Source of the DNA: a virus
Strand: one strand, 5' to 3'
Length of the DNA: 24,035 nucleotides
Virus record (IMG/VR): IMGVR_UViG_3300038701_001862
Location: 1 to 24,035 of that record
Of this stretch, positions 5,823-24,035 are shown piece after piece; the stretch's first letter is position 1, and the number at the start of each line of letters is the position of its first letter. The translations under genes and the position numbers were made by a program. The notes beneath the pieces are model-generated. The model had not been told where the DNA came from. It did no database searches and saw nothing but the letters and a program-made list of their open reading frames with translations.

Positions 5823-5849
5823 GATTTATCTCCTTGGCACCAGTTTCGA

Positions 5850-6512: not shown

Positions 6513-6516
6513 GTCG

Positions 6517-9393: not shown

Positions 9394-9394
9394 G

Positions 9395-11048: not shown

Positions 11049-11066
11049 GTTTTTCGCCTCTTTCTG

Positions 11067-11109: not shown

Positions 11110-11116
11110 CGATAAA
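11088..11116 (+). promoter_or_regulatory. Candidate promoter for the rightward 66-aa/HTH pair
   Basis: A TTGCGC box at 11088-11093 is followed after 17 bases by GATAAA (11111-11116), and a ribosome binding site (GGAGA, 11131-11135) precedes the ATG at 11143. The match to the -35 consensus is poor and to the -10 consensus moderate. One of the 11-bp repeats lies inside the spacer, and a GANTC-type pentamer (GAGTC, 11117-11121) directly follows the -10 box. Confidence 0.35.
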
Positions 11117-11142
11117 GAGTCATCAACAACGGAGAGAACGAC

Positions 11143-11343: not shown

Positions 11344-11528
11344 TGCGCCCAGAACGCCTTACCCAATGGCGCGAAGCGCGGGGGCTTTCCAAAGCCGCCG
11401 CGTGCCGCCTGCTAGGCGTCGGATCGGTCAACACTTGGGACCGATACGAGTCCGGCGAACGCCGCATCCCGCTTTCGATCCGCCTCGCCATAACGGCGCT
11501 GCAACATAACCTCCCGCCCTACGAATAG
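11343..11528 (+). CDS. XRE-like helix-turn-helix protein
   Basis: The protein (61 aa from ATG 11343; a GTG at 11340 is possible) is almost entirely a Cro/CI-type helix-turn-helix domain. The two HTH helices are visible as LSKAAACRLLGV and VNTWDRYESGERRIP, with the usual 'W-x-x-Y-E-x-G-x-R-x-x-P' ending of XRE domains. It would bind DNA as a dimer, possibly at the paired repeats upstream of its own operon. Its stop codon lies two bases from the end of the convergent methyltransferase gene, with no terminator between them, so transcription from both sides collides here. Confidence 0.75.
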   Translation: MRPERLTQWREARGLSKAAACRLLGVGSVNTWDRYESGERRIPLSIRLAITALQHNLPPYE

Positions 11529-11530
11529 GG

Positions 11531-12790
11531 TTACGCTGCCTCGCTCTCTCCACCGCGCTCACCCGCAATCTCATCAAACGAGCGTCCATCGCCCTCAAGC
11601 GTGGCCTGCTCGCCGGTAAACTCCTGCCAGCGCTTCACGGCCACATCGACGTAGGCAGGCGACAGCTCAATGGCGTGGCAGACGCGCCCGGTCATCTCCG
11701 CTGCGATGATTGTGGTGCCGGAACCAGAGAAAGGCTCATACACCGCCTGACCCGGCGAGCTGTTGTTCTCGATGGGACGCTTCATGCACTCGACGGGCTT
11801 TTGGGTGCTGTGGCCGGTTTCGCTGTTTCGTGGCTTGTCAATCTGCCACAATGTGTGCTGCTTGCGACTACCGCCCCAGTGGCCTGTGCCGCCCTTCTTG
11901 ACCAGATAGAAGCATGGCTCGTGCTGAACGTGATAATGCCCCCGCCCAATGACAGATTGGTGCTTTGCCCAGATGATCTGGGCTCGAACCTGAAAGCCGC
12001 ATGCCTCCAGCGACTGCTGCACCTCAGCCGACTTCACGCCGGCATGCCAAACATACGCCACGTCGCCGGGAAACAAAGCCCACGCCTCGCTCCAGTCGGC
12101 TCGATTGTCGTTCTGGACCTTGCCATGCATGCCCCCAGACTTGCCGGGATTTGTTTCAGGCAGGGCGCCCTTGCGCCACTCCGCGTCATACTCCACCCCA
12201 TAAGGCGGGTCCGTGACCATCAGGTGAGGCGCGACGCCGTTAAGGCACTTCGCCACCACGTCCGCGTCGGTGCTGTCCCCGCAGACGATCCGGTGCTTGC
12301 CGAGCAGCCAGACCTCACCCAGCTCCGTCACCGGGTTAAGCGGCGGCTCCGGCGTATCGTCGGGATCGGTCAGGCCCTCGGTCTTCTCAGCCATCAGGGC
12401 TTCAAGCTCGGTGCCGTCAAACCCGGTTAGTTCGCAGTCAAAGCCAAGCTCGGCCAGCCCGCGCAATTCACCGCCAAGCAGTTCCAGGTCCCAGCCCGCA
12501 TTCAGCGCCAGCTTGTTATCGGCCAGCACATAGGCGCGCTTTTGCGCTTCACTCAGGCCAGACAATTCAATGGTCGGGACCTGTTTCATGCCCAGCTTGT
12601 TGGCGGCCATCAATCGCCCGTGACCGGCAATGATTCCGTTTTCGCCATCCACAAGGATAGGATTCGTGAACCCGAACTCCTTTATCGAGGCAACGATCTG
12701 GGCGATTTGCTCATCGCTATGAGTGCGAGCGTTGCGCTGGTACGGCCTAAGGCTTTCCGCGTCCCTATAAGTGACTGCCAATTTCCTCAT
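11531..12790 (-). CDS. DNA methyltransferase with N-terminal ParB-like domain
   Basis: The 419-aa protein joins a ParB/sulfiredoxin-like N-terminal domain (residues 15-75: LRPYQRNARTHSDEQIA, IKEFGFTNPILVD, GIIAGHGRLMAA) to an N6-adenine/N4-cytosine methyltransferase. The catalytic motif DPPY is at residues 194-197 and the AdoMet-binding motif FSGSGTT at 354-360, so the motif order is that of a beta-class enzyme. An STQKPVE stretch near 328-334 is also typical. The start at 12790 forms an ATGA overlap with the HNH gene; an ATG at 12799 is an alternative. The recognition sequence cannot be read from the protein. No partner restriction gene lies nearby. Confidence 0.9.
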   Translation of the reverse strand: MRKLAVTYRDAESLRPYQRNARTHSDEQIAQIVASIKEFGFTNPILVDGENGIIAGHGRLMAANKLGMKQVPTIELSGLSEAQKRAYVLADNKLALNAGWDLELLGGELRGLAELGFDCELTGFDGTELEALMAEKTEGLTDPDDTPEPPLNPVTELGEVWLLGKHRIVCGDSTDADVVAKCLNGVAPHLMVTDPPYGVEYDAEWRKGALPETNPGKSGGMHGKVQNDNRADWSEAWALFPGDVAYVWHAGVKSAEVQQSLEACGFQVRAQIIWAKHQSVIGRGHYHVQHEPCFYLVKKGGTGHWGGSRKQHTLWQIDKPRNSETGHSTQKPVECMKRPIENNSSPGQAVYEPFSGSGTTIIAAEMTGRVCHAIELSPAYVDVAVKRWQEFTGEQATLEGDGRSFDEIAGERGGESEAA

Positions 12791-13335
12791 AGCCGACATT
12801 TAAGAACCCCATACATGCCGCTCCTGGACATTCCGAACTCGGCGGCAAGCTGGTCGAGCGAAGCGCCCTCCGCCCTACGGCGCGACATCTCCGCAGCGCG
12901 CGGGTGCTTAGACTGTTTTGGGCCGCGCTTCTTTTGTCCAGGCTTGTAATAATTCACCGGGCGCTGGTATGTGCCGTGCGCCCGCTTGTGCTGTTCATTT
13001 TCTGAGCGTGATGCCCAAACGACGTTGCACGCTCGATTGTCTGCCGCATTACCGTTTAAGTGCGCTGCCTCAGGTTTGCCCTCAGGCGGCTCGCCGTGAA
13101 AAACTAACGCCACAAGTCGGTGGACGCCGCACTTCACCGATTTACCGAGGCAAACGTACTGATATGAACCTCGATACCCAGCGGCCCAGCATTTGAGCAC
13201 ACGCCCGCGCACCCGGCGCCCGTCTACGGTGATGCGGTCAAGGGATCGAACCCTCCCGAGGCTTGAGACCTCATAACCCTCATTTCCGGGGATTGCGCGC
13301 CAGACCTCGGAAGCGCTACCTATTGCAGAAGCCAT
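12787..13335 (-). CDS. NUMOD4/HNH endonuclease with C-terminal HTH
   Basis: The 182-aa protein is a free-standing homing-type endonuclease. Residues 11-32 match NUMOD4 (VWRAIPGNEGYEVSSLGRVR), a DNA-binding module. Residues 70-118 form an HNH_3 domain, with HRLVALVFHGE, EAAHLNGNAADNRACNVVW and SENEQHK carrying the H, N and H positions. The last 35 residues are a resolvase-like helix-turn-helix (AEGASLDQLAAEFGMSRSGM) for target recognition. It overlaps the methyltransferase gene by four bases, and an AGGAGGG ribosome binding site precedes the start. Such genes spread by cutting and invading allelic phage DNA. Confidence 0.88.
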   Translation of the reverse strand: MASAIGSASEVWRAIPGNEGYEVSSLGRVRSLDRITVDGRRVRGRVLKCWAAGYRGSYQYVCLGKSVKCGVHRLVALVFHGEPPEGKPEAAHLNGNAADNRACNVVWASRSENEQHKRAHGTYQRPVNYYKPGQKKRGPKQSKHPRAAEMSRRRAEGASLDQLAAEFGMSRSGMYGVLKCRL

Positions 13336-13363
13336 GAAAGCCCTCCTACGGCTTTTGTGGTTA

Positions 13364-13399
13364 GGCCCGGCGTCGAGTGTTACAGCACTCCGCTGGGCC
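13364..13399. other. Interrupted 36-base hairpin in the HNH gene leader
   Basis: GGCCC (13364-13368) pairs with GGGCC (13395-13399), with inner GCG/CGC and GAGTG/CACTC-type pairs closing a 6-base loop. On the plus strand it is followed by a T-rich run (13401-13408), but no plus-strand gene precedes it. On the minus strand it lies between a 31-aa ORF and the HNH gene and does not cover that gene's ribosome binding site. It may be a bidirectional terminator or an insertion-junction structure. Confidence 0.4.
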
Positions 13400-13406
13400 G
13401 TTTATT

Positions 13407-13502
13407 TTACCCTGCAAGCGCGACCACCTCCAGCGCACCAACTGAACGCCGTTCGACCTTATCGGCAGGCCATTCCTTTTTAGGGGTCGTTTTTGCGGCC
13501 AT
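13407..13502 (-). CDS. 31-aa ORF resembling the start of a ParB-domain protein
   Basis: This short ORF has a good ribosome binding site (GGAG seven bases upstream of the ATG at 13502). It reads MAAKTTPKKEWPADKVERRS, continues with VGALEVVALAG and then stops. The 'W-P-A-D-K-V-E-R-R-x-V-x-x-L' string is, from memory, the usual N-terminus of phage ParB-domain methyltransferases, where it leads into the Y-x-R-N-A-R-T-H motif. Here the reading frame ends before that motif. It could be a gene remnant left by recombination or HNH invasion, or a small genuine peptide. Homology to the intact methyltransferase downstream is partial at most. Confidence 0.4.
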   Translation of the reverse strand: MAAKTTPKKEWPADKVERRSVGALEVVALAG

Positions 13503-13534
13503 ATCTCTACTCCGCCGCCTTTGCGCCGCGCTGG

Positions 13535-13744
13535 TCACGCCTCATCACAGCCATTCAGGCCCTCAAAGTCATAGCTAACCGACAACTCACCATCAGGGCC
13601 GCTGGCGATATCCACGCGCTTGGCTCCGCGCTTACGGGCGAGAGTGGCGATCAGATCGAAGAACGCGGCTGCCTGTTGCTGCTGTGGTGTCACGCCTTGC
13701 GCTTGCGCCTTGATGCTGTCGATGACAGGCGAGCGATCCGACAT
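13535..13744 (-). CDS. Small hypothetical protein behind a structured leader
   Basis: The 69-aa protein starts at 13744 (MSDRSPVIDSIKAQAQG), where a GGAG ribosome binding site sits just upstream; an upstream in-frame ATG at 13792 would fall inside the structured leader and lacks such a site. It has a glutamine-rich helix (VTPQQQQAAAFFDLIATLAR), a basic turn (KRGAKRVDIAS) and a short beta end (GELSVSYDFEG). I do not recognise the family. The mRNA leader can form two mutually exclusive structures immediately before its ribosome binding site, so its translation may be controlled. Confidence 0.6.
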   Translation of the reverse strand: MSDRSPVIDSIKAQAQGVTPQQQQAAAFFDLIATLARKRGAKRVDIASGPDGELSVSYDFEGLNGCDEA

Positions 13745-14035
13745 GACGTCTCCATATGTCAGCCTGCCCCATGCCTGGGGGAAGCACCGCATTACGCTAG
13801 GCGTGATGTGATTTAAGGGGCAGGCTGTAGGGTACCGGGCCTGTGCGTTAGGTTAAGCTATTGGCTGTGTGGGTGTCGCACGCCCGGAGAAGTAACCCCT
13901 CGGTTTGCGCGTCACTGCCTTTGGATATGCCAGCAGGCTAAGCGTGAGGGGTGTTGTTATCTGTGCCTAGCCGCAAATCTCGACTTCAGCGTTATGGACA
14001 CCATTGACATCTTTGATGTCATTCGTCAAGTCAAT
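13745..14035. other. 290-bp gene-free, structure-rich intergenic region
   Basis: No ORF of credible length is present. On either strand the region can fold: ACCCCTC (13895-13901) with GAGGGGT (13946-13952); GGGTGT (13871-13876) with ACGCCC (13880-13885), a stem that needs a G-U pair on the plus strand; GGCTA (13936-13940) with TAGCC (13968-13972); and GACATC with GATGTC near 14015-14029, just after the stop of the next gene. I found no tRNA-like T-arm and no clear promoter. It holds the leader of the 69-aa gene at its left end. Its strand and function are uncertain. Confidence 0.45.
13760..13827 (-). promoter_or_regulatory. Switch-like inverted repeat upstream of the 69-aa gene
   Basis: An 11-bp perfect inverted repeat pairs 13760-13770 with 13817-13827 across a 46-base spacer. 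Its arm nearest the gene also overlaps a local hairpin (CCCCA at 13767-13771 with TGGGG at 13776-13780), so the two foldings exclude each other. The structure ends a few bases before the GGAG ribosome binding site of the gene starting at 13744. This is the layout of a translational switch or attenuator, but no ligand or protein is indicated. Confidence 0.45.
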
Positions 14036-14548
14036 TCACGCTGCCCGATTGCCCGCCACAAACAGCCCAGCCAGCACCGCCGCCCCAGCCTTGAGCGCTT
14101 CGACATTGCGCGGCGGTCGCTGGTCACACAGGCTTACCACTTCGTCGAAAGCGCCCGGTATCGCGTCCAGCAATGCGCAGGCGTCGGCATAGGCGATCTT
14201 GGCTCTGTAGATCCGTTCTTCGCTTGTCTCAGCTCCGGGCGCTTGCGGCTGCTGTTGAGCCAGCACGCCTGCGGGTTGATACTCAGCCACGCCAAGCATC
14301 CGGCGCACACCGGCGAAAGCTTCAACGCCCTGGCCTTGCTCTTGTGTAAGAATGCCGCGCTCTACAGCCCGGTCAATCAAGCAGGTAGACCCAACCTCCT
14401 TACGATGGCGCAAAAGCTCCGGCGTCGGCTCACACCGGGCAACTTCGATGCGCCCGCGCCGCGTGGTGGGCTTTCCAGGCTTCGCCGCGCTCATGGGGTG
14501 CGGGGCTTTGCGCTTGTGCTTGCGGCGGGTTTTATTGGTTTTCGCCAT
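14036..14548 (-). CDS. Hypothetical phage protein with basic N-terminus
   Basis: This 170-aa protein is not recognised. It starts with a very basic stretch (MAKTNKTRRKHKRKAPHP) that could bind nucleic acid, followed by a second start-like segment MSAAKPGKP. The middle has a helical pattern with LLRHRKEVGSTCLIDRAVER and a glycine-containing turn, then a glutamine/proline-rich linker (LAQQQPQAPG), and a C-terminal helical half (ERIYRAKIAYADACALLDAI). An AGGG ribosome binding site precedes ATG 14548. It lies two bases after the end of the upstream gene, so it is in the same operon. Confidence 0.65.
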   Translation of the reverse strand: MAKTNKTRRKHKRKAPHPMSAAKPGKPTTRRGRIEVARCEPTPELLRHRKEVGSTCLIDRAVERGILTQEQGQGVEAFAGVRRMLGVAEYQPAGVLAQQQPQAPGAETSEERIYRAKIAYADACALLDAIPGAFDEVVSLCDQRPPRNVEALKAGAAVLAGLFVAGNRAA

Positions 14549-14550
14549 AA

Positions 14551-14865
14551 TCAGCCCTTTTTGGGAGCGGTCTTAAAAACAAGCGAACGCATGTCTTCAA
14601 GGTGTCGCTCAGTTGCGCGCAAAGACCCTGCGCTTCCAGTACCCTCCGTTGGCCTAATGCCGCACTGCCAAAGCCCATCCATCAATTCTTGTGCTGATGT
14701 GATATCTAGCGAGACAGTTGGAGGAACCAAAACTCCCTCATCGCGCTTTAAAAAAACCAAAGGCTTTGCATAATTTTGCCCTGAATCTGTCAAGCACCCA
14801 AATCGGACGTCAATACGCTGCCCAAAATTGCTGCGCTCAAGAAATACTTTAAATTGGTCGCTCAT
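14551..14865 (-). CDS. Hypothetical protein
   Basis: The 104-aa protein is not recognised. It begins MSDQFKVFLERSNFGQRID and has a beta-rich first half (VRFGCLTDSG, AKPLVFLKRDEGV, VSLDITSAQEL) and a helical end (ERHLEDMRSLVFKTAPKKG). No membrane segment or metal-binding motif is visible. It lies inside an unbroken run of minus-strand genes, starting right after the stop of the upstream gene. Its local base composition is more AT-rich than its neighbours, which may indicate a separate origin. Confidence 0.6.
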   Translation of the reverse strand: MSDQFKVFLERSNFGQRIDVRFGCLTDSGQNYAKPLVFLKRDEGVLVPPTVSLDITSAQELMDGLWQCGIRPTEGTGSAGSLRATERHLEDMRSLVFKTAPKKG

Positions 14866-15102
14866 TTATCTTGTTTCCTTCTTCGCTTTGCGCATTGCAT
14901 CGGCCTCCTGTCCAAGCTGCTGCAAACGGTCCAAAGCTTGCGCCCGGTCCCATTCCATCTTTGCCCGCTCAACATCGTGCAGCGCGTTATCAAGCTTAAT
15001 CCTCTGAGGGCTTGGCGTCGTGCTAACAGGTGCCAGCATTTCCCGCACCGTCACCACAAGGCGGGCTGATGCGTTGCGTAGGGCTTTGCATTCGTCACTC
15101 AT
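14866..15102 (-). CDS. Small coiled-coil hypothetical protein
   Basis: The 78-aa protein from ATG 15102 (MSDECKALRNASARLVVTVR) overlaps the end of the cytosine methyltransferase gene by four bases (ATGA), and an AGGAG site eight bases upstream supports this start over 15129. Two helices rich in charged residues and alanine (QRIKLDNALHDVERAKMEWD and the following QALDRLQQLGQEADAMRKAK) indicate a coiled coil. The function is unknown. Its start region contains one copy of an 18-bp repeat that recurs upstream of the methyltransferase gene. Confidence 0.65.
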   Translation of the reverse strand: MSDECKALRNASARLVVTVREMLAPVSTTPSPQRIKLDNALHDVERAKMEWDRAQALDRLQQLGQEADAMRKAKKETR

Positions 15103-15935
15103 GCCGCTTGCTCCTGTGCTGCCAGCCATGCACGGCCTAGAAGTTCGGGAATTTGAGGAACTACGGCGTTTCCAAGGGCTTTAAGTCTGTCCACCCCATT
15201 GGGAACCCCATGAGCCATTCGACCCACTGCGGGTTCAACGGCCCATCCACAGTCATAAAAAGCTCGATGCTTTTCCCGATCTTCTTCCTGCGCTGAATTG
15301 CGGGCGTTGACGGGCCGCCCCGATCCCGATGGTCGGACGCGCAAGGAGTCGGCCACATTTGCCGCTTGACCGCCGTCGCCAATCCATCGCCAGACGTAGG
15401 CGAACAGCCTTTCCGATTGTAGTTTCCGTTCACTGTCGGGGTGGGCCACAAGCCAGAGCCGGGCGCGCTTGTGCCGGGCGCCAATGTCTGCTGCTGAAAT
15501 AACATCCCACTCCGCATTATACCCGAGCGCGGCCAAGTCTCCGCATACAACGTCCATCCCTCGACCAAGCAACGCTGCGACGTTCTCCACGAAGACGACG
15601 CGCGGTCGAAGCTCGCCAATAAGGCGCGCGTACTCACGCCATAGGCCGCTTCTCTCGCCTTCAATGCCAGCGCCTCGGCCAGCGGTACTAATGTCTTGGC
15701 ACGGGAACCCTCCGCAGATCGCGTCAACGGTAATTCCATCGGCAGCAAGTCGCTCTGCGGTGAGGTCTCGTATTTCATAATAGCAAGGCACCTCCGGCCA
15801 ATGCTTTGCGAGCACCCGGCGCGGGAACTCTTCGATTTCACAAAAGGCGACGGTCTCAAATCCGCCGCTGCGCTCAAGGCCCAGTGAAAAGCCGCCGATG
15901 CCGCTGAACAGGTCTAGAAGCTTTAGCTTTTGCAT
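15099..15935 (-). CDS. DNA cytosine-C5 methyltransferase
   Basis: The 278-aa enzyme transfers a methyl group from AdoMet to C5 of cytosine in DNA. Motif I (LDLFSGIGG) is at residues 7-15, the catalytic PCQ at 78-80 (GGFPCQDIS), motif VI ENV at 117-119, motif VIII around RHKRARLWLVAH (154-165), and motifs IX-X in LKALGNAVVPQIPELLGRA near 251-269. The target-recognition region (about 168-245) is short, so the enzyme is compact; typical members exceed 300 aa. The start at 15935 overlaps the preceding 10-aa ORF as TAATG and has an AGGAG site. An 18-bp repeat spans both ends of the gene. No cognate nuclease is visible. Confidence 0.93.
   Translation of the reverse strand: MQKLKLLDLFSGIGGFSLGLERSGGFETVAFCEIEEFPRRVLAKHWPEVPCYYEIRDLTAERLAADGITVDAICGGFPCQDISTAGRGAGIEGERSGLWREYARLIGELRPRVVFVENVAALLGRGMDVVCGDLAALGYNAEWDVISAADIGARHKRARLWLVAHPDSERKLQSERLFAYVWRWIGDGGQAANVADSLRVRPSGSGRPVNARNSAQEEDREKHRAFYDCGWAVEPAVGRMAHGVPNGVDRLKALGNAVVPQIPELLGRAWLAAQEQAA
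15103..15120. repeat. 18-bp direct repeat, copy 1 (methyltransferase 3' end)
   Basis: This 18-bp sequence (GCCGCTTGCTCCTGTGCT on the plus strand) is identical to 15939-15956. Here it encodes the methyltransferase C-terminus AQEQAA and supplies the AGGAG ribosome binding site of the 78-aa gene. Confidence 0.85.
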
Positions 15936-15967
15936 TAGGCCGCTTGCTCCTGTGCTTGGCGGATCAT
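15935..15967 (-). CDS. 10-aa linking ORF before the cytosine methyltransferase
   Basis: The ORF reads MIRQAQEQAA. It starts in an ATGA overlap with the stop of the replication-like gene and ends in a TAATG overlap with the methyltransferase start. Its last six residues equal the C-terminus of the methyltransferase, because both are encoded by the same 18-bp repeat. It is most likely a gene-end remnant or a coupling ORF that carries the ribosome binding site, not a functional protein. Confidence 0.4.
   Translation of the reverse strand: MIRQAQEQAA
15939..15956. repeat. 18-bp direct repeat, copy 2 (methyltransferase 5' side)
   Basis: This is an exact copy of 15103-15120. It provides the AGGAG site for the methyltransferase and, in the short upstream ORF, again encodes AQEQAA followed by a stop. 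Together the copies bracket the whole methyltransferase gene. Confidence 0.85.
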
Positions 15968-16629
15968 GCGTTTTCCGCTTCTTGTTCAAACGCGCGCTTT
16001 TTTTGCGCTAGTTCAAGATATGCCTTTGAATATGCAATCCGATTATATCCGGCCCTCTCAGCATAACCGTTTGCGGCCCGCCACCATACTAAATCACCGT
16101 GCGTAGTGCGCAAGACTGCCGTAGGCGGCACGCCCTTTGAAGCGTTCACGTGCGTTACGCCAATTCCATCAGCGAAAAGCGCGTCAAGTATATCATCGGG
16201 ACACCCCTGCTCGCTCATGGCTGAAAGCATCTCATGAACCTGGCCTTTTGAATTCTGCCACGACTTGCCGGTAACTGGCCGCGCTTCAATGCCAGCGCCT
16301 TCACGCGGCTTAATATCTTCAACCTCCCACTGGCCCTGCTCTAGCCACCATTCAAGGCCCTTGATGTATTTGCCGTTCTCGTTTGCTAGGTGGCGTTCTA
16401 CATATGCCTCTAGAGCACCGATCAGGACATTTTCACTAACCTTGTACAACGCTGCTTTGGTCGCCTCTCGGCAACGCTCCATGGGGGTCAGGCCGTGCTT
16501 GCGCTTGCTGTTGGGTTTAAGCCCAACGGTGCGGGCTTTGCCTTGTTTCGGGTAGATCGACCAGATCCGCTCAAACACCGTGTCAGGTGCTTTTGGTGCG
16601 GCTTGCTGGCTAAGGGGCAGTTCAGTCAT
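15964..16629 (-). CDS. Replication-like phage protein
   Basis: The 221-aa product (start at 16629, TAATG overlap with the upstream stop) contains, at about residues 18-105, the segment FERIWSIYPKQGK, then VLIGALEAYVERHLANENGK and YIKGLEWWLEQGQWE. This 'f-W-x-x-Y-P-x-k...a...a-x-x-y...e-x-x-y-i-k-x-x-x-x-W-L-x-x-x-x-W' pattern occurs in many phage replication or helicase-loading-type proteins. The C-terminal half is not recognised. The assignment to replication is moderate, supported by the neighbouring DnaA-like gene, though the typical N-terminal winged-helix part is absent. Confidence 0.6.
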   Translation of the reverse strand: MTELPLSQQAAPKAPDTVFERIWSIYPKQGKARTVGLKPNSKRKHGLTPMERCREATKAALYKVSENVLIGALEAYVERHLANENGKYIKGLEWWLEQGQWEVEDIKPREGAGIEARPVTGKSWQNSKGQVHEMLSAMSEQGCPDDILDALFADGIGVTHVNASKGVPPTAVLRTTHGDLVWWRAANGYAERAGYNRIAYSKAYLELAQKKRAFEQEAENA

Positions 16630-17639
16630 TAGAAAATTCCCCAACCCTTATGCGTTTTTGGCACACTCACCCGTGAAATTCCCACCAATTTATTGTGTAA
16701 TTGTACGCACTCACTCGACAATTGGAAACCGACGCTCTCAGGGTTCAAAACGCCGCGCAACGCCTCCTCTTTTGCGTCGCGAACCCTCTTAACTACTTCG
16801 TTACATTTCCAATCAAGCCTTTTCCACTCGGTAAAACATTTGCGGCCTAGATCATAAAACCGCTCCGTTCTGCCCGCGCCCCTTGAACCAGTAGCCTGCC
16901 GAATCTTATGCCATCGGGTAAATGCGCTCGTAGCCCGGCGATCTAACTTAGCCGCACATTCGACCAAAGGCCGCATTTCGTCAAAAATTGCTTCCGCCGA
17001 CACTCGCTGTAAAACTGCCCAAGCGACAGGCATACGCGCTGCTCGATAATCGCCCTGCGCCAGCACGCGCCACGCAACATCACCAAACCGCGTCGTTTGC
17101 ATCAACGCTCGCATTCTCTTTTCAGCAAGCAACTCTTCATCACACTGATTCAAAAACCTCAGCAAAGCCGATCCCTCGCGGCCCTTCATCATCGTTACCG
17201 CAATCACCGCGTCAGGCGTCTTCGGTGCGCTTACTAAAAACGCCTCAAGCTCTGTTATATTTTCTTCGCTAAAATTTCCGCATAGGTCTAAGTTGGCTGC
17301 AACTATGACCTGATTGCGTTTGGCAATCTCCGCGCCGACTTCGCCAACCGGCTTGCCGATAAACTCGCACTGCGGCCATTTCTTGCGCCAATGTGACGTG
17401 GCGATTAACGCCGGGCTTTTATCGACGCAGACAATTTTCTCAGGCGGTATGCCGTGTTTTACCGCGACTTCGATTTCCAACCCCTCCCGGCTCGGCAAAA
17501 TAAGCCAACGAGCACGATCATTTTCAAGATAACGTCGCGTCGCTGGTGCAATGGCGCTCCACACGTCCTCTCGATATTGAGCCTTTGCGGGCAAGTCATA
17601 GCCCTGTTTCGGCGCTCTCACTTCTAATCCGTCAAGCAT
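16629..17639 (-). CDS. Rossmann-like protein, possible AdoMet-dependent enzyme (unknown)
   Basis: The 336-aa protein is not a recognised family. Residues 45-80 read like the core of a class I methyltransferase-type Rossmann fold: a strand (WLILPSREGLEIEVA), a helix, then IVCVDKSPALIATS with an acidic residue at the end of the second strand. A later VIVAANLDLCGNFSEENI could be a motif IV-like position, but no DPPY or PCQ is present. The C-terminal 130 residues are helical and basic (LDRRATSAFTRWHKIRQATG and later KRLDWKCNEVVKRV), which may bind nucleic acid. A GGAG site precedes the ATG at 17639. Confidence 0.6.
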   Translation of the reverse strand: MLDGLEVRAPKQGYDLPAKAQYREDVWSAIAPATRRYLENDRARWLILPSREGLEIEVAVKHGIPPEKIVCVDKSPALIATSHWRKKWPQCEFIGKPVGEVGAEIAKRNQVIVAANLDLCGNFSEENITELEAFLVSAPKTPDAVIAVTMMKGREGSALLRFLNQCDEELLAEKRMRALMQTTRFGDVAWRVLAQGDYRAARMPVAWAVLQRVSAEAIFDEMRPLVECAAKLDRRATSAFTRWHKIRQATGSRGAGRTERFYDLGRKCFTEWKRLDWKCNEVVKRVRDAKEEALRGVLNPESVGFQLSSECVQLHNKLVGISRVSVPKTHKGWGIF

Positions 17640-17664
17640 TTTCCCATCTCCGTTCTGTGTTCTG

Positions 17665-17949
17665 TCATAGCTCCGCCTTTTTCTTCTTCAGCCAGTATTT
17701 TGCGTCTGGCTTGGATAGCGCAAAAAGCTCCTTGTAAGCGGCCTCCGGGTCATCGGTCCAAAACGCAATTCCCTTAAAGTGCATTAATTGGGTTGCAGGG
17801 TAATAGCTGACGCCCTTTGATTTTAAGCCCCGACCATAACAGCCAGCCCCCTTCAATCGCCACTGCGGGAAATTTTCTTCAAACCTTATCCAAGCCATCC
17901 GCTTTCCGTGCTTTGTCAGCTTTCTTGTCGGTGCAAACTTTATCTTCAT
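17665..17949 (-). CDS. Small basic hypothetical protein
   Basis: The 94-aa protein starts MKIKFAPTRKLTKHGKRMAW and is strongly basic, with aromatic and glycine-rich central turns (GAGCYGRGLKSKGVSYYPA), a helix (DPEAAYKELFALSKPD) and a lysine-rich tail (KYWLKKKKAEL). It resembles small phage nucleic-acid-associated proteins in composition, but no family was recognised. It is the first gene after the 550-bp structured region and may be transcribed across that region from upstream or from an unseen local promoter. Its start has a weak G-rich site. Confidence 0.6.
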   Translation of the reverse strand: MKIKFAPTRKLTKHGKRMAWIRFEENFPQWRLKGAGCYGRGLKSKGVSYYPATQLMHFKGIAFWTDDPEAAYKELFALSKPDAKYWLKKKKAEL

Positions 17950-17964
17950 CCCGTGCCCCTGTGT

Positions 17965-18457
17965 CTTTTAAGTCCTGTTTCCCTAAGGCTGAACCGGATG
18001 CGAGCTGTTGAGCTAAGGCATAGGACTGCTATCCCCGGCTAAAAAGCCAAGGTGCAGTCCCGCCAAGCAATGTCTGAACCATCAGGTCGCCGCATCGCGT
18101 TGGCCCAACAGTGCCGCGCATGGCCTGTTAGTCGGTTCCGTCGTTCGGGGATATTGCGCTCCCCGGCAGGTATGGGCTCAGAACCTTTCGGACTTGCCCT
18201 TGGCTATACCCTGCATCCCCACAGTAGCCTTAAACGTTTGTCCGCTGCCGTCTTACGCCGACCGGGGCCATGCATGGCCGTATACAAACGCGCACCGCAT
18301 AAAGCGGTTTAGACATTTACTTGGAAGGTCAGCTAGGGCATAAACGATCTGCACCGGGTACGCGCCTTGTCTTTCCTTGTTTTCCAAGGCCGGTGGAGTT
18401 GTCCCTCTCCATCAGTCCGGTCCTTAGACCCGCTGGCTTCGGCTGGCGGGTCTTTCT
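17965..18457 (+). ncRNA. Candidate large structured non-coding RNA
   Basis: No credible protein gene occupies this stretch, yet it is dense in stems that fit plus-strand RNA. They include GGACTGC 18023-18029 with GCAGTCC 18054-18060 around an AAAA-capped hairpin; AACAG/CTGTT plus GCC/GGC at 18107-18129; CGGGGA/TCCCCG at 18146-18165; GGCAGGT/ACTTGCC at 18165-18198; CGTTTG/CAAACG at 18235-18290 enclosing a 5-bp hairpin (18266-18279); ACCGC/GCGGT at 18294-18308; and a crossing pair CTTGGAA/TTCCAAG with CACCGG/CCGGTG (18320-18395) that would form a pseudoknot. It ends in a UUCG-capped terminator. G-U pairs in two stems favour the plus strand. The 5' end and promoter are not defined. No known RNA class was recognised. 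Confidence 0.45.
18426..18457 (+). terminator. UUCG-capped intrinsic terminator of the candidate RNA
   Basis: A 12-bp stem (18426-18437 with 18442-18453, two G-U pairs valid only on the plus strand) is closed by a C-UUCG-G tetraloop and followed by a short T-rich tail (18453-18457). On the minus strand the stem is broken by two mismatches and no T-run follows. No plus-strand protein gene precedes it, so it points to a non-coding transcript. Confidence 0.65.
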
Positions 18458-18500
18458 AATTCGTAACCTACGTTTTTTAGTTTGGCAAGTTACCGGCTTT

Positions 18501-18758
18501 TTATTCTGGCAAGCCATTTCGTTTAGCGTGCGTCCTAACGCCGTAAATAACGGTGGCATGGTCACGACCGCCTAAGCGCCTTCCAATCTGAGGATAAGTC
18601 AGACCAAGCTGGCGTAAACGATACATGGCTTCCTGGCGAGCAATCGAGATTGGCCGTGTCTGGCGCTTGCCTTTCAGCATTTCTGGCGTCACACCGTGCT
18701 CATCAAATATATCTCGAAACACCTGATCGCGGCGCAAAGCCAATTCCCACCCGTTCAT
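18501..18758 (-). CDS. DnaA domain IV-like mini-protein
   Basis: The 85-aa product has only the C-terminal DNA-binding domain of DnaA. Residues 32-80 contain the RQTRPISIARQEAMYRLRQL helix-turn, then YPQIGRRLGGRDHATVIYGV, which matches the DnaA signature 'i-G-r-x-x-G-g-R-D-H-t-T-V'. The ATPase and helicase-loading domains are absent, so it could occupy DnaA boxes without initiating. The start at 18758 overlaps the GcrA stop as TGATG; ATG 18764 is also possible. Similar stand-alone domains occur in alphaproteobacterial phages. It may compete with host DnaA or act in phage replication. Confidence 0.85.
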   Translation of the reverse strand: MNGWELALRRDQVFRDIFDEHGVTPEMLKGKRQTRPISIARQEAMYRLRQLGLTYPQIGRRLGGRDHATVIYGVRTHAKRNGLPE

Positions 18759-19507
18759 CACCATGCCAGCACTTTTTGGCGGCGCTCGCCTCGCGCTGAC
18801 ACCTGATCTAAGAAGCTATCCAGCCCGCCCCTGTCTGCCTTGGCGTTAAGCTCAACCTCATAACCACTCACACTGACAGCCTGATGAGCTTTGCAGTATG
18901 AGCTACCAGCGCGAGCCTTAGCACCACAGAACAGATGATCCTCGCCCGGCTTGGCGTCGTTGACCGCCCACCGGCACTCACCGGCTTGCAGCTGTTCAAT
19001 CGGCACACGGCGCGCATCGGGGTTAGCGGTTTCAGCGTCTTTTAATCGACGAAGAACCGTGTCTGGCTGCTCTACCCGTGTTGCGCCTTTCTGTGCGCCC
19101 TGAACGCCTTTAATGACGTTCGGGCGATTGCCTTCGAGCGTCTTACGCTTGCGCTGTGTGCGCGGCTTTTTAGGTCTAACCGCCTTAGCCCGCACCGCAC
19201 GATTAACCGGCAACTTCAACCGCAGGCGTTTCATGCCAATGGCGCGTGGGTCTTTGCCCATCGCCTCACCAATTTGAGCGTCGGTTTTACCCTCAGCCCA
19301 CAGCGCCTTAAACTGCTCTGTCTCCGCGTCTGACCATTGATTGCCGCCGCGCTGCAAGCCCAGCCGGTTGAGGCGACCGATCACGGCATTTCGCGTAACG
19401 CCGCCGCCGAATTTGTCGGCAATCTTCGCAGCGCTTAGGCCCTGCTCCCAAAGCTCGGCTAACGCTTTATCGCGCGCCTCGGTCCAGGTTTGATGTCCTC
19501 GTGTCAT
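18758..19507 (-). CDS. gcrA: GcrA-family cell-cycle regulator with duplicated HTH
   Basis: The 249-aa protein belongs to the GcrA family, which in Caulobacter binds RNA polymerase sigma-70 and activates promoters carrying methylated GANTC sites. Residues 7-52 are the canonical N-terminal domain (TWTEARDKALAELWEQGLSA, then VTRNAVIGRLNRLGL). Residues 57-98 look like a second copy (QWSDAETEQFKALWAEGKTD, AIGMKRLRLKL), which ordinary GcrA proteins do not have. A basic linker follows, and the C-terminal part has GECRW, FCGA and SSYCKAH, with C178, C194, C205 and H208 as a possible zinc site, matching the family C-terminus. A GAGG site precedes ATG 19507. Confidence 0.9.
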   Translation of the reverse strand: MTRGHQTWTEARDKALAELWEQGLSAAKIADKFGGGVTRNAVIGRLNRLGLQRGGNQWSDAETEQFKALWAEGKTDAQIGEAMGKDPRAIGMKRLRLKLPVNRAVRAKAVRPKKPRTQRKRKTLEGNRPNVIKGVQGAQKGATRVEQPDTVLRRLKDAETANPDARRVPIEQLQAGECRWAVNDAKPGEDHLFCGAKARAGSSYCKAHQAVSVSGYEVELNAKADRGGLDSFLDQVSARGERRQKVLAW

Positions 19508-19518
19508 AAAATCACCTC

Positions 19519-19914
19519 TTAGCGTTCAATCGGCTTCGTGGCCGAGCGTTGGGGGTTGGATTTGGGAAAGCCGCGACCCTTGGGCAGCTTCGCGCCCTGC
19601 TGAAACCATCCAGGCTTAGGCCGGTCTTTGCGGACCTTGTGCGCGTTGCGCTTGCGGCGCATGGCTTGGTCACTGGCGCTTTTAATTTTGTGGCAGGGCT
19701 TGCAAAGGTGCGCCCCGTCCGCAGCAGTCAGATCCGCGCTCTTGTCGGTTTCCAGCGTGTCTGCGAAAACGTGGTCGATATCCACCGCAGGCCGGTCGCA
19801 ATGCTTTGGGAACATATGCGAAATATCAGCGGGCATACGGTGGCACTCGCACACGCCGCCAGAGCGCTGGCGTATTTGAGCCTTGACGGGTTCGCGAAAT
19901 TCGCGGCGGCTCAT
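19519..19914 (-). CDS. HNH endonuclease-like protein
   Basis: The 131-aa product has an HNH-type nuclease layout: a zinc-type cysteine region (C22, C24, C39), the catalytic-type VDIDHVF at about 44-50, and a second knuckle LCKPCHKIKSASD (70-82) with C71, C74 and H75. The 'D-H ... L-C-x-x-C-H-x-x-K' pattern is characteristic. The middle asparagine is not clearly present. The C-terminal 45 residues are basic and proline-rich. It overlaps the MT-A70 gene by four bases (ATGA) and its stop region contains the ribosome binding site of gcrA, so all three genes are tightly coupled. Confidence 0.8.
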   Translation of the reverse strand: MSRREFREPVKAQIRQRSGGVCECHRMPADISHMFPKHCDRPAVDIDHVFADTLETDKSADLTAADGAHLCKPCHKIKSASDQAMRRKRNAHKVRKDRPKPGWFQQGAKLPKGRGFPKSNPQRSATKPIER

Positions 19915-20495
19915 GACGCCACCTGATCAAACAAGCTTGCATCCCGTTTGCCGGTTTGATTGCCCCACGCCGTCCATTGTGGCCGGTTAAGCCGGGAAAA
20001 CAGCTCTAGGTACGGGCCACCCACCAGCGCTTCAATACGGTCGTATTGCTCATCAGGCTTGGCAGAATGTGCGCCCTTGGGGCAGAACAGGGCTTGGCGA
20101 ACGCCCTTGCTCAGTCGTTTAGGTGAGCCCTTTGTGAACAGCCAGCATTGCTCCGTTTGCTTACGGGTCCAGTATCCCATGCCGATACGCGGCGTTTGAC
20201 CTTCGTTACGGCTTTTGAACCAGACGAAGGCGCAAGTCTTAAACTTAAAGCCCCATGCCTCACCAAGCTGCAAGGCTTCGTCCAGATGCGAGTCCACAAC
20301 CCACATAAACAGCGCGCAGTCATCAGCAGCGCTATCAGCAACAGGAAGCGCGGCCATGTCCTCAAATGACATAACCGGGTAATGGTCCTCAGCACCACGA
20401 TGCGGGGTCTGACCATCGCGCTTGTTGTAGGTGGCAAACGCCCACGGTGGATCTGCTAGAATGGCACCAAATGGGCCAAGCGGGAGCTGGCTCAT
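19911..20495 (-). CDS. MT-A70 family adenine methyltransferase
   Basis: The 194-aa enzyme probably methylates N6 of adenine in DNA. The catalytic DPPW motif is at residues 15-18 (AILADPPWAFATYNKRDGQ). Further family landmarks are YPVMSFEDMAALPV, CALFMWVVDSHLDEAL, GFKFKTCAFVWFKSRN and a final YLELFSRLNRPQWTAWGNQ, in the usual order. The length is typical for phage MT-A70 proteins. The specificity is not evident. The start at 20495 overlaps the upstream stop as ATGA, with a GGGGGTGA ribosome binding site. Confidence 0.92.
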   Translation of the reverse strand: MSQLPLGPFGAILADPPWAFATYNKRDGQTPHRGAEDHYPVMSFEDMAALPVADSAADDCALFMWVVDSHLDEALQLGEAWGFKFKTCAFVWFKSRNEGQTPRIGMGYWTRKQTEQCWLFTKGSPKRLSKGVRQALFCPKGAHSAKPDEQYDRIEALVGGPYLELFSRLNRPQWTAWGNQTGKRDASLFDQVAS

Positions 20496-20677
20496 ACATC
20501 ACCCCCGTCACAAAAGTCCCGCTGCACCTGCTTGGCGTAATCCATCACAGCGTTGATGGCGTCGGTGCGGTCCTTTTGAGCGACGCGCTTGCCGTAGTCG
20601 TGCGCAACGTTGGCGGGATGCTCACCAGCCAGCACGCGGGTTGCTATGGCTTCCTGCTGAATGTCTGTGAGGGTCAT
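20492..20677 (-). CDS. Small hypothetical protein
   Basis: The 61-aa protein (MTLTDIQQEAIATRVLAGEH onward) is helical, with a QQEAIATRVLAGEHPANVAH segment that could be half of a helix-turn-helix and an acidic end (RDFCDGGDV). No family was recognised. It is coupled by ATGA overlaps on both sides, to the 56-aa gene upstream and the MT-A70 gene downstream, as expected for a real gene in this operon. Confidence 0.65.
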   Translation of the reverse strand: MTLTDIQQEAIATRVLAGEHPANVAHDYGKRVAQKDRTDAINAVMDYAKQVQRDFCDGGDV

Positions 20678-20844
20678 GCGCTTGCATCCGTGTACGCAGC
20701 CCAGCGCGGCAGCTTCACGCCATCGCGATCCATGCTGTCTGCCATGGCGCGGGCCACGGCGCGGATATGCTCACGGCGGCGCTTGGCCTTCTGCCCCTTC
20801 GGCGCAATGCGCTCGGCTTGGCGGGCTTTCATAACTTCATTCAT
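20674..20844 (-). CDS. 56-aa basic protein between repressor and 61-aa gene
   Basis: This short gene reads MNEVMKARQAERIAPKGQKA and continues with KRRREHIRAVARAMADSMDR to a W-containing C-terminus. It overlaps the repressor gene by eight bases at its start and the next gene by four (ATGA) at its end, so it fills the only gap in the operon exactly. It is helical and strongly basic, which suggests nucleic-acid or protein binding, but the family is unknown. Confidence 0.6.
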   Translation of the reverse strand: MNEVMKARQAERIAPKGQKAKRRREHIRAVARAMADSMDRDGVKLPRWAAYTDASA

Positions 20845-21034
20845 CGCAATCACCCCACGCTGAAACCGGAACCTTACCGCGCGTCACGCGGCTCATCTTC
20901 CGGCGCATCTGATATTTGGGCCGCGCTTTACCATGACGCCACTTGTAAACGGTTGAGGGGCCAACCCCGACCCGCTCCGCGAACTCTGCCAGCGTTAGCC
21001 GGTTAGAGTGTAGATATATGTCCAGCTTGTCCAT
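20837..21034 (-). CDS. Cro/CI-like HTH repressor
   Basis: The 65-aa protein (from ATG 21034; an ATG at 21040 lies inside the -10 box) is a single helix-turn-helix domain: LTLAEFAERVGVGPSTVYKW carries the two HTH helices, followed by a basic HGKARPKYQMRRKMSR and a VTRGKVPVSAWGD end. Single-domain proteins of this layout are common in alphaproteobacterial prophages at the divergent control region. It heads the leftward regulatory operon and faces the rightward early genes, so it is the probable switch protein. It lacks a self-cleavage domain, so it is Cro-like or a CI without RecA control. Confidence 0.8.
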   Translation of the reverse strand: MDKLDIYLHSNRLTLAEFAERVGVGPSTVYKWRHGKARPKYQMRRKMSRVTRGKVPVSAWGDCDE

Positions 21035-21038
21035 GCGC

Positions 21039-21044
21039 ATTATA
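21039..21044 (-). promoter_or_regulatory. Perfect -10 box four bases before the repressor ATG
   Basis: On the minus strand TATAAT (21044-21039) ends four bases before ATG 21034, so transcription would begin at or beside the start codon and give a leaderless mRNA. No good -35 box is present at the normal distance (CGGAGA lies at 17 bases), which suggests either activator dependence or a chance match. Confidence 0.4.
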
Positions 21045-21050
21045 CTGCAT

Positions 21051-21098
21051 CAAAACAATTTTCTCCGCAAGCCAATTTTTTTCTTGCAATGTGTTTTG
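21051..21098. promoter_or_regulatory. Nested inverted repeats, candidate operator
   Basis: In the divergent gap CAAAACA (21051-21057) is inverted as TGTTTTG (21092-21098), and inside it GCAAG (21067-21071) is inverted as CTTGC (21083-21087). The stretch is AT-rich compared with its surroundings. Position between a repressor gene and early genes suggests operators for the HTH protein. A weak rightward promoter may start at TTGCAA (21084-21089). Confidence 0.45.
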
Positions 21099-21139
21099 GG
21101 GCGTGCCACTGTAGCCCTCACACCAAGGGAGTGACAGAC

Positions 21140-21460
21140 ATGGACAAACACGAACGCGAATACGACGGCTTCCGCCCCGGTCAACTGGACACGGCGCGCG
21201 ATGAAGCTGCAACCTTGCGCCAAGCCGCCGAGGATATCGGCGCAACCCTCGCCAAGCGTTTTGGGTTTATGGAGCGCAAGGAAATTGAACAGCTGGCAGA
21301 AACCCTCGTGGACTGCCTGTGGCGCACAGAACCGCTGGAACAGCTATCAAATGATGACGTGCGCGAGGCAATCCAGATTGAACCTTTCCAGCACGCCCGC
21401 GACGCCATGTATGGCGCTTGGGAAGCGGCCTTCGCTGAGCAGCACAAGGGAGCCGCGTGA
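21140..21460 (+). CDS. First rightward early protein (unknown)
   Basis: The 106-aa protein starts at ATG 21140, supported by an AAGGGAG site; an upstream in-frame ATG at 21089 lies in the control region. The sequence is acidic and helical (RPGQLDTARDEAATLRQAAE, KEIEQLAETLVDCLWR) and its C-terminus is FQHARDAMYGAWEAAFAEQH. It has no recognised domain. As the first gene right of the control region it is a candidate early antirepressor or host-takeover factor, but this is only positional inference. It overlaps the next gene by one base (TGATG). Confidence 0.65.
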   Translation: MDKHEREYDGFRPGQLDTARDEAATLRQAAEDIGATLAKRFGFMERKEIEQLAETLVDCLWRTEPLEQLSNDDVREAIQIEPFQHARDAMYGAWEAAFAEQHKGAA

Positions 21461-22263
21461 TGGCTAACGAAATCATCGCTTACAAGGGTTTTAACTCTGA
21501 CCTCACCTGCCTCGATTTTCAGTATGAAGTTGGGCAGAACTATCACCACGACGGTGAAGTATCGCTCTGCGGCTCAGGCTTCCATGCCTGCGAGCATCCG
21601 TTGCATGTCCTGAAATACTACGACGCGCGTCAATCGCGGTTTTGCGAGGTCCGGCTGGCAGGAAAGGTAGAGCGCGGTGAAGACAAGCTCTGCTCTGCAT
21701 CTATCGAGATTCAGGCTGAGATTAGCCTTGGCCAGCTAATTGAACGCGCGGTTGAATTTGTCACCGCTCGCGCAAATTCAGCAGAAGGCTCGACGACGCG
21801 CGGTGACAATTGCGCGGCAGTTAATAGCAACAAGTCCGGCGCGGCCACAGCGTCTGGCAGGTCCGGCGCGGCCACAGCGTCTGGCGATTGCGGCGCGGCC
21901 ACAGCGTCTGGCAGGCACGGCGCGGCCACAGCGTCTGGCGATTGCGGCGCGGCCACAGCGTCTGGCTGGTACGGCGCGGCCACAGCGTCTGGCGATTGCG
22001 GCGCGGCCACAGCGTCTGGCGAGTACGGCGCGGCCACAGCGTCTGGCAGGTCCGGCGCGGCCACAGCTGAGCATTCGACCGCAGTTGCTCATGCCAGCTT
22101 TAATGGCAAAGCGCGAGCTGTTGAGGGTGCCGCTATTCACCTAGATGAGCGCGACCCCGACAGCGGCGAAATTTTGCACGTGTTTGCCGGGATAGCTGGG
22201 CGTGATGGCGTGAAGCCTGACACCTGGTATCGCCTTAATGGCGGCAAGCTGGTCGAGGTTTAG
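21460..22263 (+). CDS. DUF7666-like protein with variable GAATASG repeats
   Basis: The 267-aa protein starts at ATG 21460. Residues 1 to about 105 (IIAYKGFNSDLTCLDFQYEV, LCGSGFHACEHPLHVLKYY, RFCEVRLAGKVERGEDK) match a phage domain that I remember as DUF7666. The middle consists of nine-residue repeats with the core GAATASG, each followed by two variable residues, as seen in related phage proteins. The end (AIHLDERDPDSGEILHVFAG, DGVKPDTWYRLNGGKLVEV) is a compact C-terminal domain. The repeats would suit a beta-helix-like rod. Function is unknown; it may be a host-interaction or decoy protein. Confidence 0.75.
   Translation: MANEIIAYKGFNSDLTCLDFQYEVGQNYHHDGEVSLCGSGFHACEHPLHVLKYYDARQSRFCEVRLAGKVERGEDKLCSASIEIQAEISLGQLIERAVEFVTARANSAEGSTTRGDNCAAVNSNKSGAATASGRSGAATASGDCGAATASGRHGAATASGDCGAATASGWYGAATASGDCGAATASGEYGAATASGRSGAATAEHSTAVAHASFNGKARAVEGAAIHLDERDPDSGEILHVFAGIAGRDGVKPDTWYRLNGGKLVEV
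21838..22067 (+). repeat. 27-bp coding tandem repeats with 6-bp variable slots
   Basis: Eight identical 21-bp cores (starting at 21838, 21865, 21892, 21919, 21946, 21973, 22000 and 22027) and a ninth partial core are separated by 6-bp segments. The variable codon pairs encode RS, DC, RH, DC, WY, DC, EY and RS, preceded by KS. DC occupies every second slot, so the array also has a 54-bp periodicity. The cores show no synonymous changes, which points to recent expansion or ongoing homogenisation. Confidence 0.95.
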
Positions 22264-22265
22264 CC

Positions 22266-22373
22266 ATGACCCGCCGCATCCTCTCCACCCTCTCAGAGCT
22301 TTGTCACCTTGGCCTGTTTATGGCCGCGTGGATGCTCTGCCTTACTGTTGCTGTTGCTGTAGGAGCGTTTTGA
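22266..22373 (+). CDS. 35-aa single-pass membrane protein
   Basis: This short gene reads MTRRILSTLSELCHLGLFMA, followed by a hydrophobic stretch AAWMLCLTVAVAVGAF to the end. It has positively charged residues at the N-terminus and one membrane span, so it would sit in the inner membrane with its N-terminus probably inside. It starts two bases after the previous stop and ends one base before the next start, which supports a real gene. Possible roles include holin-like or superinfection-exclusion functions, but nothing specific is visible. Confidence 0.6.
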   Translation: MTRRILSTLSELCHLGLFMAAWMLCLTVAVAVGAF

Positions 22374-22374
22374 T

Positions 22375-22866
22375 ATGAGTGAACAGAACATTTATTCGAG
22401 CGCTGACGCGAAAGCCCTGGCTATAGCGGGCAAGCTGCCAAGCGGCTCACGCGTTGGCGGGGCGCTGTACCTTCAAGGCACTGGCATCACCGCCTTGCCC
22501 GATGGCCTGACTGTTGGCGGGTGGCTGGACCTTCGAGGCACTGGCATCACCGCCCTGCCCGATAACCTGACTGTTGGCGGGTGGCTGTACCTTCAAGGCA
22601 CTGGCATCACCGCCCTGCCCGATAACCTGACTGTTGGCGGGTTGCTGCACCTTCAAGGCACTGGCATCACCGCCTTGCTTGAAGATGAGCGCGGATACCG
22701 AATGGATCGCGCTGGCGACTATTATCACGCTGGTTGCAGGCGGTTCACCGCAGATGAAGCGCTCGCGCATTGGGGGTCGCCAGATTATCCCAACCCAGCA
22801 CGCGGAAAGCGTTTTTGTGAGGCTGTCATTGCCGAGGAAAAGCGTCGCCAAGAGGTCGCATCATGA
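22375..22866 (+). CDS. Leucine-rich-repeat-like phage protein
   Basis: The 163-aa protein has an N-terminal cap (SADAKALAIAGKLPSGSRVG), four 20-residue repeats of the form 'D-x-L-T-V-G-G-x-L-x-L-x-G-T-G-I-T-A-L-P' (residues 23-102), and a C-terminal domain from about 103 with AGDYYHAGCRRFTADEALAH and FCEAVIAEEK. The C-terminal 'A-G-C-R-r-F-T-x-x-E-A-L-x-H-W' pattern recurs in phage proteins with similar LRR or beta-solenoid repeats. It lies next to another repeat protein. Such solenoids usually mediate protein binding; the partner is unknown. Confidence 0.75.
   Translation: MSEQNIYSSADAKALAIAGKLPSGSRVGGALYLQGTGITALPDGLTVGGWLDLRGTGITALPDNLTVGGWLYLQGTGITALPDNLTVGGLLHLQGTGITALLEDERGYRMDRAGDYYHAGCRRFTADEALAHWGSPDYPNPARGKRFCEAVIAEEKRRQEVAS
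22441..22680 (+). repeat. Four 60-bp tandem repeats inside the LRR-like gene
   Basis: Units start at 22441, 22501, 22561 and 22621 and are each exactly 60 bp. Units 2-4 differ from each other at only a few positions (for example D/Y/H and R/Q codons), while the first unit diverges at its start. The near-identity at DNA level indicates recent duplication or gene conversion. Confidence 0.93.
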
Positions 22867-23099
22867 CCAAAGCCGCCGAGATTAAAGCGCTGGCCGAACG
22901 CATTAAGAGCTTTGCCATCGCAATGGAAAAGCCCGGCGCGGATCGGCAAGCGGAAGCGGCCAGCATTGACCGCTGCCTTGTCCGCATCAAGGCGCTGACC
23001 TCTGACATTGCTGTCACCGTGGCGCACGAAAGCCCGCGCGCCTCACGCCCGCCGCTTGTTGACCAACAAACCGCCGAGCCTGTGCTTGGCATCAAGTAA
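22863..23099 (+). CDS. Small helical hypothetical protein
   Basis: The 78-aa protein (MTKAAEIKALAERIKSFAIA onward) is rich in alanine, lysine and glutamate and has one long helix to about residue 40, then SIDRCLVRIKALTSDIAVTV and a proline-containing tail. No family was recognised. It overlaps the LRR-like gene by four bases (ATGA), so it belongs to the rightward operon. It directly precedes two hairpins and the recombinase-like gene. Confidence 0.6.
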   Translation: MTKAAEIKALAERIKSFAIAMEKPGADRQAEAASIDRCLVRIKALTSDIAVTVAHESPRASRPPLVDQQTAEPVLGIK

Positions 23100-23104
23100 T
23101 CCCC

Positions 23105-23175
23105 TTGCGCGCTCTCGTCCTCCCTGTGGAGCGCGCAAACTGGCAGGGCGGGTTGATCCCCTCGCCCGTCCTGCC
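23105..23175 (+). promoter_or_regulatory. Tandem hairpins between the 78-aa gene and the annealing-protein gene
   Basis: Hairpin one is a 10-bp perfect inverted repeat (23105-23114 with 23129-23138) with a 14-base loop, starting just after the upstream stop codon. Hairpin two has an 11-bp stem (23142-23152 with 23165-23175, one G-U pair valid on the plus strand) with a 12-base loop, followed by a weak T-rich run. They could act as attenuator and terminator, or as an mRNA processing site, before the gene at 23200. Confidence 0.55.
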
Positions 23176-23199
23176 TCCTTTATCCTGAATGGAGACGAC

Positions 23200-24021
23200 A
23201 TGACCGCAGAACCAAAAAAGCCCACCGGCCTTGCGCTGCTACGCGTGCCGTTTGAGGCGCATCAAATCTCCAAGCTACCCAAACAGGCAGGCTGGATGGC
23301 TGACAAGAAGAACGAATATCGCAACTGCGATGTGTGCGGAGGGTGGCACCACCCTAAAGCCGTTCACTTAGATTATGTCGGCCACGCCGCTTTGACTGAT
23401 CGCCTGCTGGATGCGGACCCTGAATGGAATTGGGAGCCGGTGACCACCACCGAAACGGGCGCGCCGAAGCTGGATGAAAACGGCGGCATGTGGATCAAGC
23501 TTACGGTCTGCGGTGTCACGCGCCTTGGGTATGGACACCCTGACGGGAAGCGTGGGGGGGACGCTGTAAAAGAGGTCATTGGCGATGCGCTGCGTAATGC
23601 GGCGATGCGCTTTGGTGCGGCCCTGGACCTTTGGCACAAGGGCGATCTGCACGCGCTTGATGGCGGCGGTGCTGGCGAGCCGGAACAGCCCAAAGCCGAA
23701 CGCAAGCAAGCGCCGCCAAAGCGGCAGTCTCCACACCCTGACACTATCGACATGCTGGATTGGAGTGACTTACTTTCCGGCGAAGCGCAGGACGGCACCG
23801 CATATGAGGTTGGAGCCTACGGCAAAGACGACAGCAAGACGGTTTTTGCCGCGCTTCAATCCGCCATGCGCAGCGCACAGACCGCAGCCGAGTTGGCGCA
23901 TTGGATGCACTCAAACGCCGCTGAAATCTGGAAGCTTAATTCAGCCGCACGCCACCACCTTCGGGAGCGCTTCGACACGCTTAACGAAAAACTACCAATG
24001 AACACGATGGAGACAGCTTAA
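23200..24021 (+). CDS. Rad52-like single-strand annealing protein
   Basis: The 273-aa protein from ATG 23200 (GGAGA ribosome binding site just upstream) resembles phage Rad52/Rad22-type recombinases. Residues 7-30 (KPTGLALLRVPFEAHQISKL) form the family N-terminus. A CDVCGGWHH segment at 43-51 could bind metal. The core (VHLDYVGHAALTDRLLDADP, then WIKLTVCGVTRLGYGHPDG) ends in AVKEVIGDALRNAAMRFGAA at about 122-141, the most Rad52-like helix. The C-terminal half is acidic and flexible, as in many annealing proteins, and may bind SSB. It anneals single strands during phage recombination. The start at 23008 is not supported. Confidence 0.75.
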   Translation: MTAEPKKPTGLALLRVPFEAHQISKLPKQAGWMADKKNEYRNCDVCGGWHHPKAVHLDYVGHAALTDRLLDADPEWNWEPVTTTETGAPKLDENGGMWIKLTVCGVTRLGYGHPDGKRGGDAVKEVIGDALRNAAMRFGAALDLWHKGDLHALDGGGAGEPEQPKAERKQAPPKRQSPHPDTIDMLDWSDLLSGEAQDGTAYEVGAYGKDDSKTVFAALQSAMRSAQTAAELAHWMHSNAAEIWKLNSAARHHLRERFDTLNEKLPMNTMETA

Positions 24022-24035
24022 TGACCTTGCGTAAC
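24021..24035 (+). CDS. Next gene of the rightward operon (partial)
   Basis: An ATG at 24021 overlaps the preceding stop as TAATG, with a GGAGA site eight bases upstream. Only five codons (MTLRN) are in the window, so nothing can be said of its function. Confidence 0.5.

Follow-up and report, generated by a model that had tools for sequence, protein, structure and literature searches.

A 551-bp non-coding spacer in the replication-type module of a probable alphaproteobacterial phage and its putative plus-strand counter-transcript

In phage lambda, the short antisense OOP RNA is made from pO, a promoter close to the replication origin that is oriented opposite to pR (PMC3985674). The locus described here resembles OOP and pO in its orientation counter to the operon, its place in a replication region and, as proposed, the stop of the transcript at an intrinsic terminator next to a regulatory gene (PMC3985674). 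It differs from OOP in that the 551-bp spacer is far longer, overlaps no coding sequence and belongs to a phage of another host clade. Moreover, the candidate proposed here, unlike OOP and pO, was read from the sequence alone, and the promoter patterns scanned gave no site above chance for it. The CcnA ncRNA of Caulobacter crescentus (PMC8959179) offers a second point of comparison, given that the putative transcript, like CcnA, is non-coding and placed at a replication locus in alphaproteobacteria, and that the phage encodes a GcrA-like protein next door. CcnA, however, lies in the host origin together with CtrA and DnaA boxes, whereas the spacer contains no such boxes. The GOLLD and ROOL RNAs resemble the candidate in being phage-borne, non-coding and hundreds of nucleotides long. 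Both are Rfam families that were defined by covariation and are often found near tRNA islands (PMC12286853). In contrast, the spacer has no covariance-model match (neither family is among the matches to E 10), no homologs of it were found in the collections searched, and no tRNA or tmRNA was detected by ARAGORN in the whole window, i.e., the 24,035-nucleotide stretch of viral DNA that was analysed.

The spacer and its replication-type module

The spacer occupies the 551-bp gap (17950-18500) between the minus-strand coding sequences at 17665-17949 and 18501-18764. An earlier, sequence-only reading of this DNA had described about 490 bp without a convincing open reading frame (ORF), and both codon use and periodicity confirm a true gap that is non-coding. 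When scored with the phage's own codon usage, the spacer ORFs of at least 44 aa range from -0.06 to -0.49 bits per codon, with the single exception of a 44-codon ORF at +0.04, versus +0.05 to +0.46 for the phage genes, most of which are above 0.2. The period-3 power is 0.19, compared with a window median of 3.1. A decayed gene was considered and rejected, given the lack of a period-3 signal and of a Pfam match for four ORFs taken from the region. The Rfam scan that had been suggested gave no family at the gathering threshold, and none of the weak matches that appear when the cut-off is relaxed to E 10 is credible; they resemble noise. Models of group I and group II introns, ribozymes and tmRNA also left the spacer unmatched (Rfam, ARAGORN). 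A group I intron, for which a P7/P8-like stretch had been picked by eye at 18005-18060, was discarded because no intron model matches even at E 10.

All the neighbouring genes run on the minus strand, as the sequence-only reading had stated and the map of coding sequences bears out. Upstream of the spacer, the gene at 18501-18764 encodes an 87-aa protein with a DnaA C-terminal DNA-binding domain (PF08299, E 1.8e-18). This DnaA_C gene adjoins that of a 249-aa homolog of the cell-cycle regulator GcrA (18758-19507, minus strand, PF07750), which points to an alphaproteobacterial host and to a possible action of the phage on the host cell cycle. The virus is a tailed phage, and its host is probably an alphaproteobacterium. 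Downstream of the spacer lies the gene of p94 (17665-17949, minus strand), a 94-aa protein of no recognised family with coding-like codon use. The protein p226 weakly matches replication initiation proteins (phrog_270, E 0.00045); apart from this match, p94, p336 and p226 have no relatives in the viral contigs or annotated phages tried, and p336 and p226 have none in 385 genomes. The orphan p336 (16629-17639, minus strand, 336 aa) looks by eye Rossmann/methyltransferase-like in its N-terminal half; it gave no family or structure match, and its single-sequence model, with a pLDDT of 42, is unusable.

Comparison with L122, which is the nearest relative of the window and about 90% identical, shows that the minus-strand replication-type module at 15121-18755 has been exchanged as a block. 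The flanks of this block are 88-91% identical on both sides, and in its place L122 carries genes for a 102-aa protein, a 444-aa protein that appears by inspection to be DnaB-like, and a 268-aa replication initiation protein. The spacer is absent from L122, and in the related records L002 and L009 the next gene follows within 70 bp after the DnaA_C gene. A search of related phage genomes had also been suggested, and no homolog of the spacer was found in the collections searched: blastn against phage and plasmid records gave no DNA match; translated-frame pattern scans of viral contigs and of 84,980 species, each represented by a single genome, gave none either, with a method that catches close relatives only; and a DNA search of 50 related records and of 385 genomes belonging to one class returned only the core of the terminator described below and short chance matches. 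Among the relatives examined, the spacer is thus found in this module only. In L003, a gap beyond the DnaA_C locus resembles, by eye, antisense coding sequence.

The terminator hairpin and the putative counter-transcript

The most solid feature of the spacer is the plus-strand hairpin at 18426-18453, which is likely an intrinsic terminator. Folding and a terminator scan identify a 12-bp stem with a cUUCGg loop and a T-rich tail (TTCTAATT), the arms being AGACCCGCUGGC-UUCG-GCUGGCGGGUCU. The G+C-rich hairpin followed by a T-rich tract that is expected of an intrinsic terminator is thus present on the plus strand, with a T-tract that is modest. The stem has 12 pairs on this strand, including two tandem G-U pairs, and because of these two pairs it is broken on the minus strand, where only 8+2 pairs are formed. 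The previous claim that this UUCG terminator is intact on the plus strand only is therefore correct. It is the strongest of the terminator-like sites in a scan of 4036-24035, in which 23 sites were observed versus 24 by chance, and it is also the best 36-nt local fold in the spacer, being equalled in 2.3% of shuffles. A near-identical core follows a minus-strand gene in L131 (CCCCGCTGGCTTCGGCTAGCGGGGCTTTTTT), and in L139 such a core sits in the gap between two convergent genes. Given that the terminator looks real and that its core recurs in gaps at gene ends, it is plausible that a transcript of the plus strand ends near 18455. A 3' end near 18457 had been predicted previously for a large structured plus-strand RNA, a fold that is unsupported here.

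There is no coding-like plus-strand gene nearby to the left, so that some other transcript of the plus strand is needed for the terminator to act on. The locus lies in a replication setting, lacks coding sequence and has a plus-strand terminator although its surroundings are otherwise minus-strand, all of which suggests an OOP-type counter-transcript. We therefore take as the best explanation, with a probability of about 0.42, that this is a spacer of the replication module in which a putative plus-strand transcript of this type ends at the terminator; the non-coding gap, the terminator-like hairpin with its strand and the modular setting are what the sequence shows, and the existence of the transcript, its start and its regulatory role are what we infer. 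The transcript would start in the spacer or just to the left of it, and would halt at the terminator (18426-18457) before reaching the DnaA_C gene. The RNA may act in cis, either by pairing as an antisense strand with the operon mRNA along the spacer or by promoter interference, and this action would tune the downstream replication genes that encode p94, p336 and p226. Alternatively, the role of the terminator may be to shield the operon from counter-transcription. As placed, the would-be RNA is complementary to the part of the operon mRNA that spans the spacer and not to coding sequence. No sigma-70 or Caulobacter-type promoter above chance was found for it on the plus strand, where phage or alphaproteobacterial promoters may not fit the patterns used. 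A trans-acting RNA directed at the starts of phage mRNAs was rejected, the predicted pairing being at the level of shuffles. If the plus-strand RNA is made, this probable alphaproteobacterial phage would have an OOP-like regulator linked to a replication module that can be exchanged, and to our knowledge the small RNAs of alphaproteobacterial phages have been little studied.

Folding of the spacer and alternative readings

The sequence-only reading had proposed instead a large structured non-coding RNA on the plus strand, which would be about 450-490 nt long and of the ornate sort known from phages. It is in favour of this proposal that a non-coding stretch of 551 nt ends in a plus-strand terminator, that the minimum free energy (MFE) of the plus strand has a z-score of -2.8, and that a 12-bp long-range helix, AAUGUCUGAACC/GGUUUAGACAUU (18069-18317), includes one G-U pair on the plus strand. 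Nonetheless, the numbers of structural elements are those of 200-300 dinucleotide-preserving shuffles on both strands. Helices of -11 kcal/mol or better number 121 on the plus strand (shuffle mean 119) and 103 on the minus strand (97), so that the whole set to which the long-range helix belongs is at shuffle level. The many local hairpins that had been offered as evidence amount to 51 on the plus strand, versus 54 in shuffles, and to 44 on the minus strand (46). The H-type pseudoknot at 18320-18395 is present on the plus strand as described, with the crossing pairs CUUGGAAGGU/GUUUUCCAAG (18320-18329/18379-18388) and CACCGG/CCGGUG (18352-18357/18390-18395), but such pairs are as common in shuffles: pseudoknots in which each stem reaches -9 or better number 115 on the plus strand (shuffle mean 121) and 95 on the minus strand (87), and those of such strength occur in every shuffled sequence. 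Choosing hairpins and pseudoknots by eye in a 500-nt spacer thus calls for caution, as shuffles give them too. The plus-strand z-score is only -1.5 when the terminator is left out, and the minus strand folds better (-4.3, and -3.4 without the terminator). With MFE favouring the minus strand, no promoter above chance, no Rfam match, no homolog in the collections searched and a close relative, L122, that does not have the region, a large structured RNA is unsupported by the sequence statistics and ranks low, as a possible but quite improbable reading. A new class of such RNA, about 450-490 nt long, carried on the plus strand of the exchangeable replication module, terminated near 18457 and unrelated to anything in the collections searched, is likewise quite improbable.

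The better fold of the minus strand would fit a structured element, intercistronic or in a leader, that the minus-strand operon mRNA carries upstream of p94, such as a processing or stability hairpin. The z-score holds at -3.1 to -3.5 in sub-windows, and a hairpin at 18022-18061, GGGACUGC..CCUUGGCU-UUUU-AGCCGGGG..GCAGUCCU (18061-18022 on the minus strand), is the sole other strong hairpin in the spacer besides the terminator. Its energy is -27.0 kcal/mol on the minus strand versus -19.7 on the plus strand (z-scores of -6.5 and -4.7, respectively), with tandem U-G pairs on the minus strand only; it is not a terminator, because no T-tract follows it on that strand. The previous argument that G-U pairs favour the plus strand holds for the tandem pairs of the terminator and fails for this hairpin, and was therefore selective. 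The strand evidence is contradictory, since the terminator favours the plus strand while this hairpin and the MFE favour the minus strand. However, 400-nt tiles elsewhere in the window, which are mostly coding, reach z-scores of -4.2, -4.0 and -3.6 (rough values, from 24 shuffles per tile), and the folding z-scores of the spacer are unexceptional among the coding tiles of this phage. Considering also the helix counts at shuffle level, a length of 551 nt that is large for such an element and the lack of homologs, we regard an element of the operon mRNA as improbable. A reading that is also rather unlikely, though less so, has the spacer serve as a DNA control region, either an operator/promoter for p94-p336-p226 or a replication origin; no functional RNA would be produced, and the terminator would do no more than keep pervasive counter-transcription out of the DnaA_C gene. 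The position of the spacer, with a DnaA_C-domain gene on one side and replication-type genes on the other, the exchange of the block as a unit with respect to L122 and the lack of structure above chance are all in line with this possibility. Against it, there is no clear AT-rich unwinding tract and no minus-strand promoter above chance in the spacer, and its repeats are no more than two-copy matches. An origin built on iterons and DnaA boxes was rejected, since the spacer contains no iterons and no GANTC sites, and the DnaA box TTWTNCACA is found nowhere in the window.

Other features of the window

A second gene-poor stretch, at 11049-11530, is flanked by the small terminase gene and by the ParB/methyltransferase gene. 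Its minus-strand ORFs score -0.01 and -0.14, one of them having a weak match of unknown function only, and a plus-strand terminator-like site is located inside it at 11203-11220. An exact 18-bp direct repeat, AGCACAGGAGCAAGCGGC, occurs on the minus strand at 15103-15120 and 15939-15956 and flanks a C5-cytosine methyltransferase gene (15099-15989). The second copy of the repeat and the end of the L122 replication gene share a 26-bp match, which suggests that the methyltransferase gene was inserted at the module boundary.
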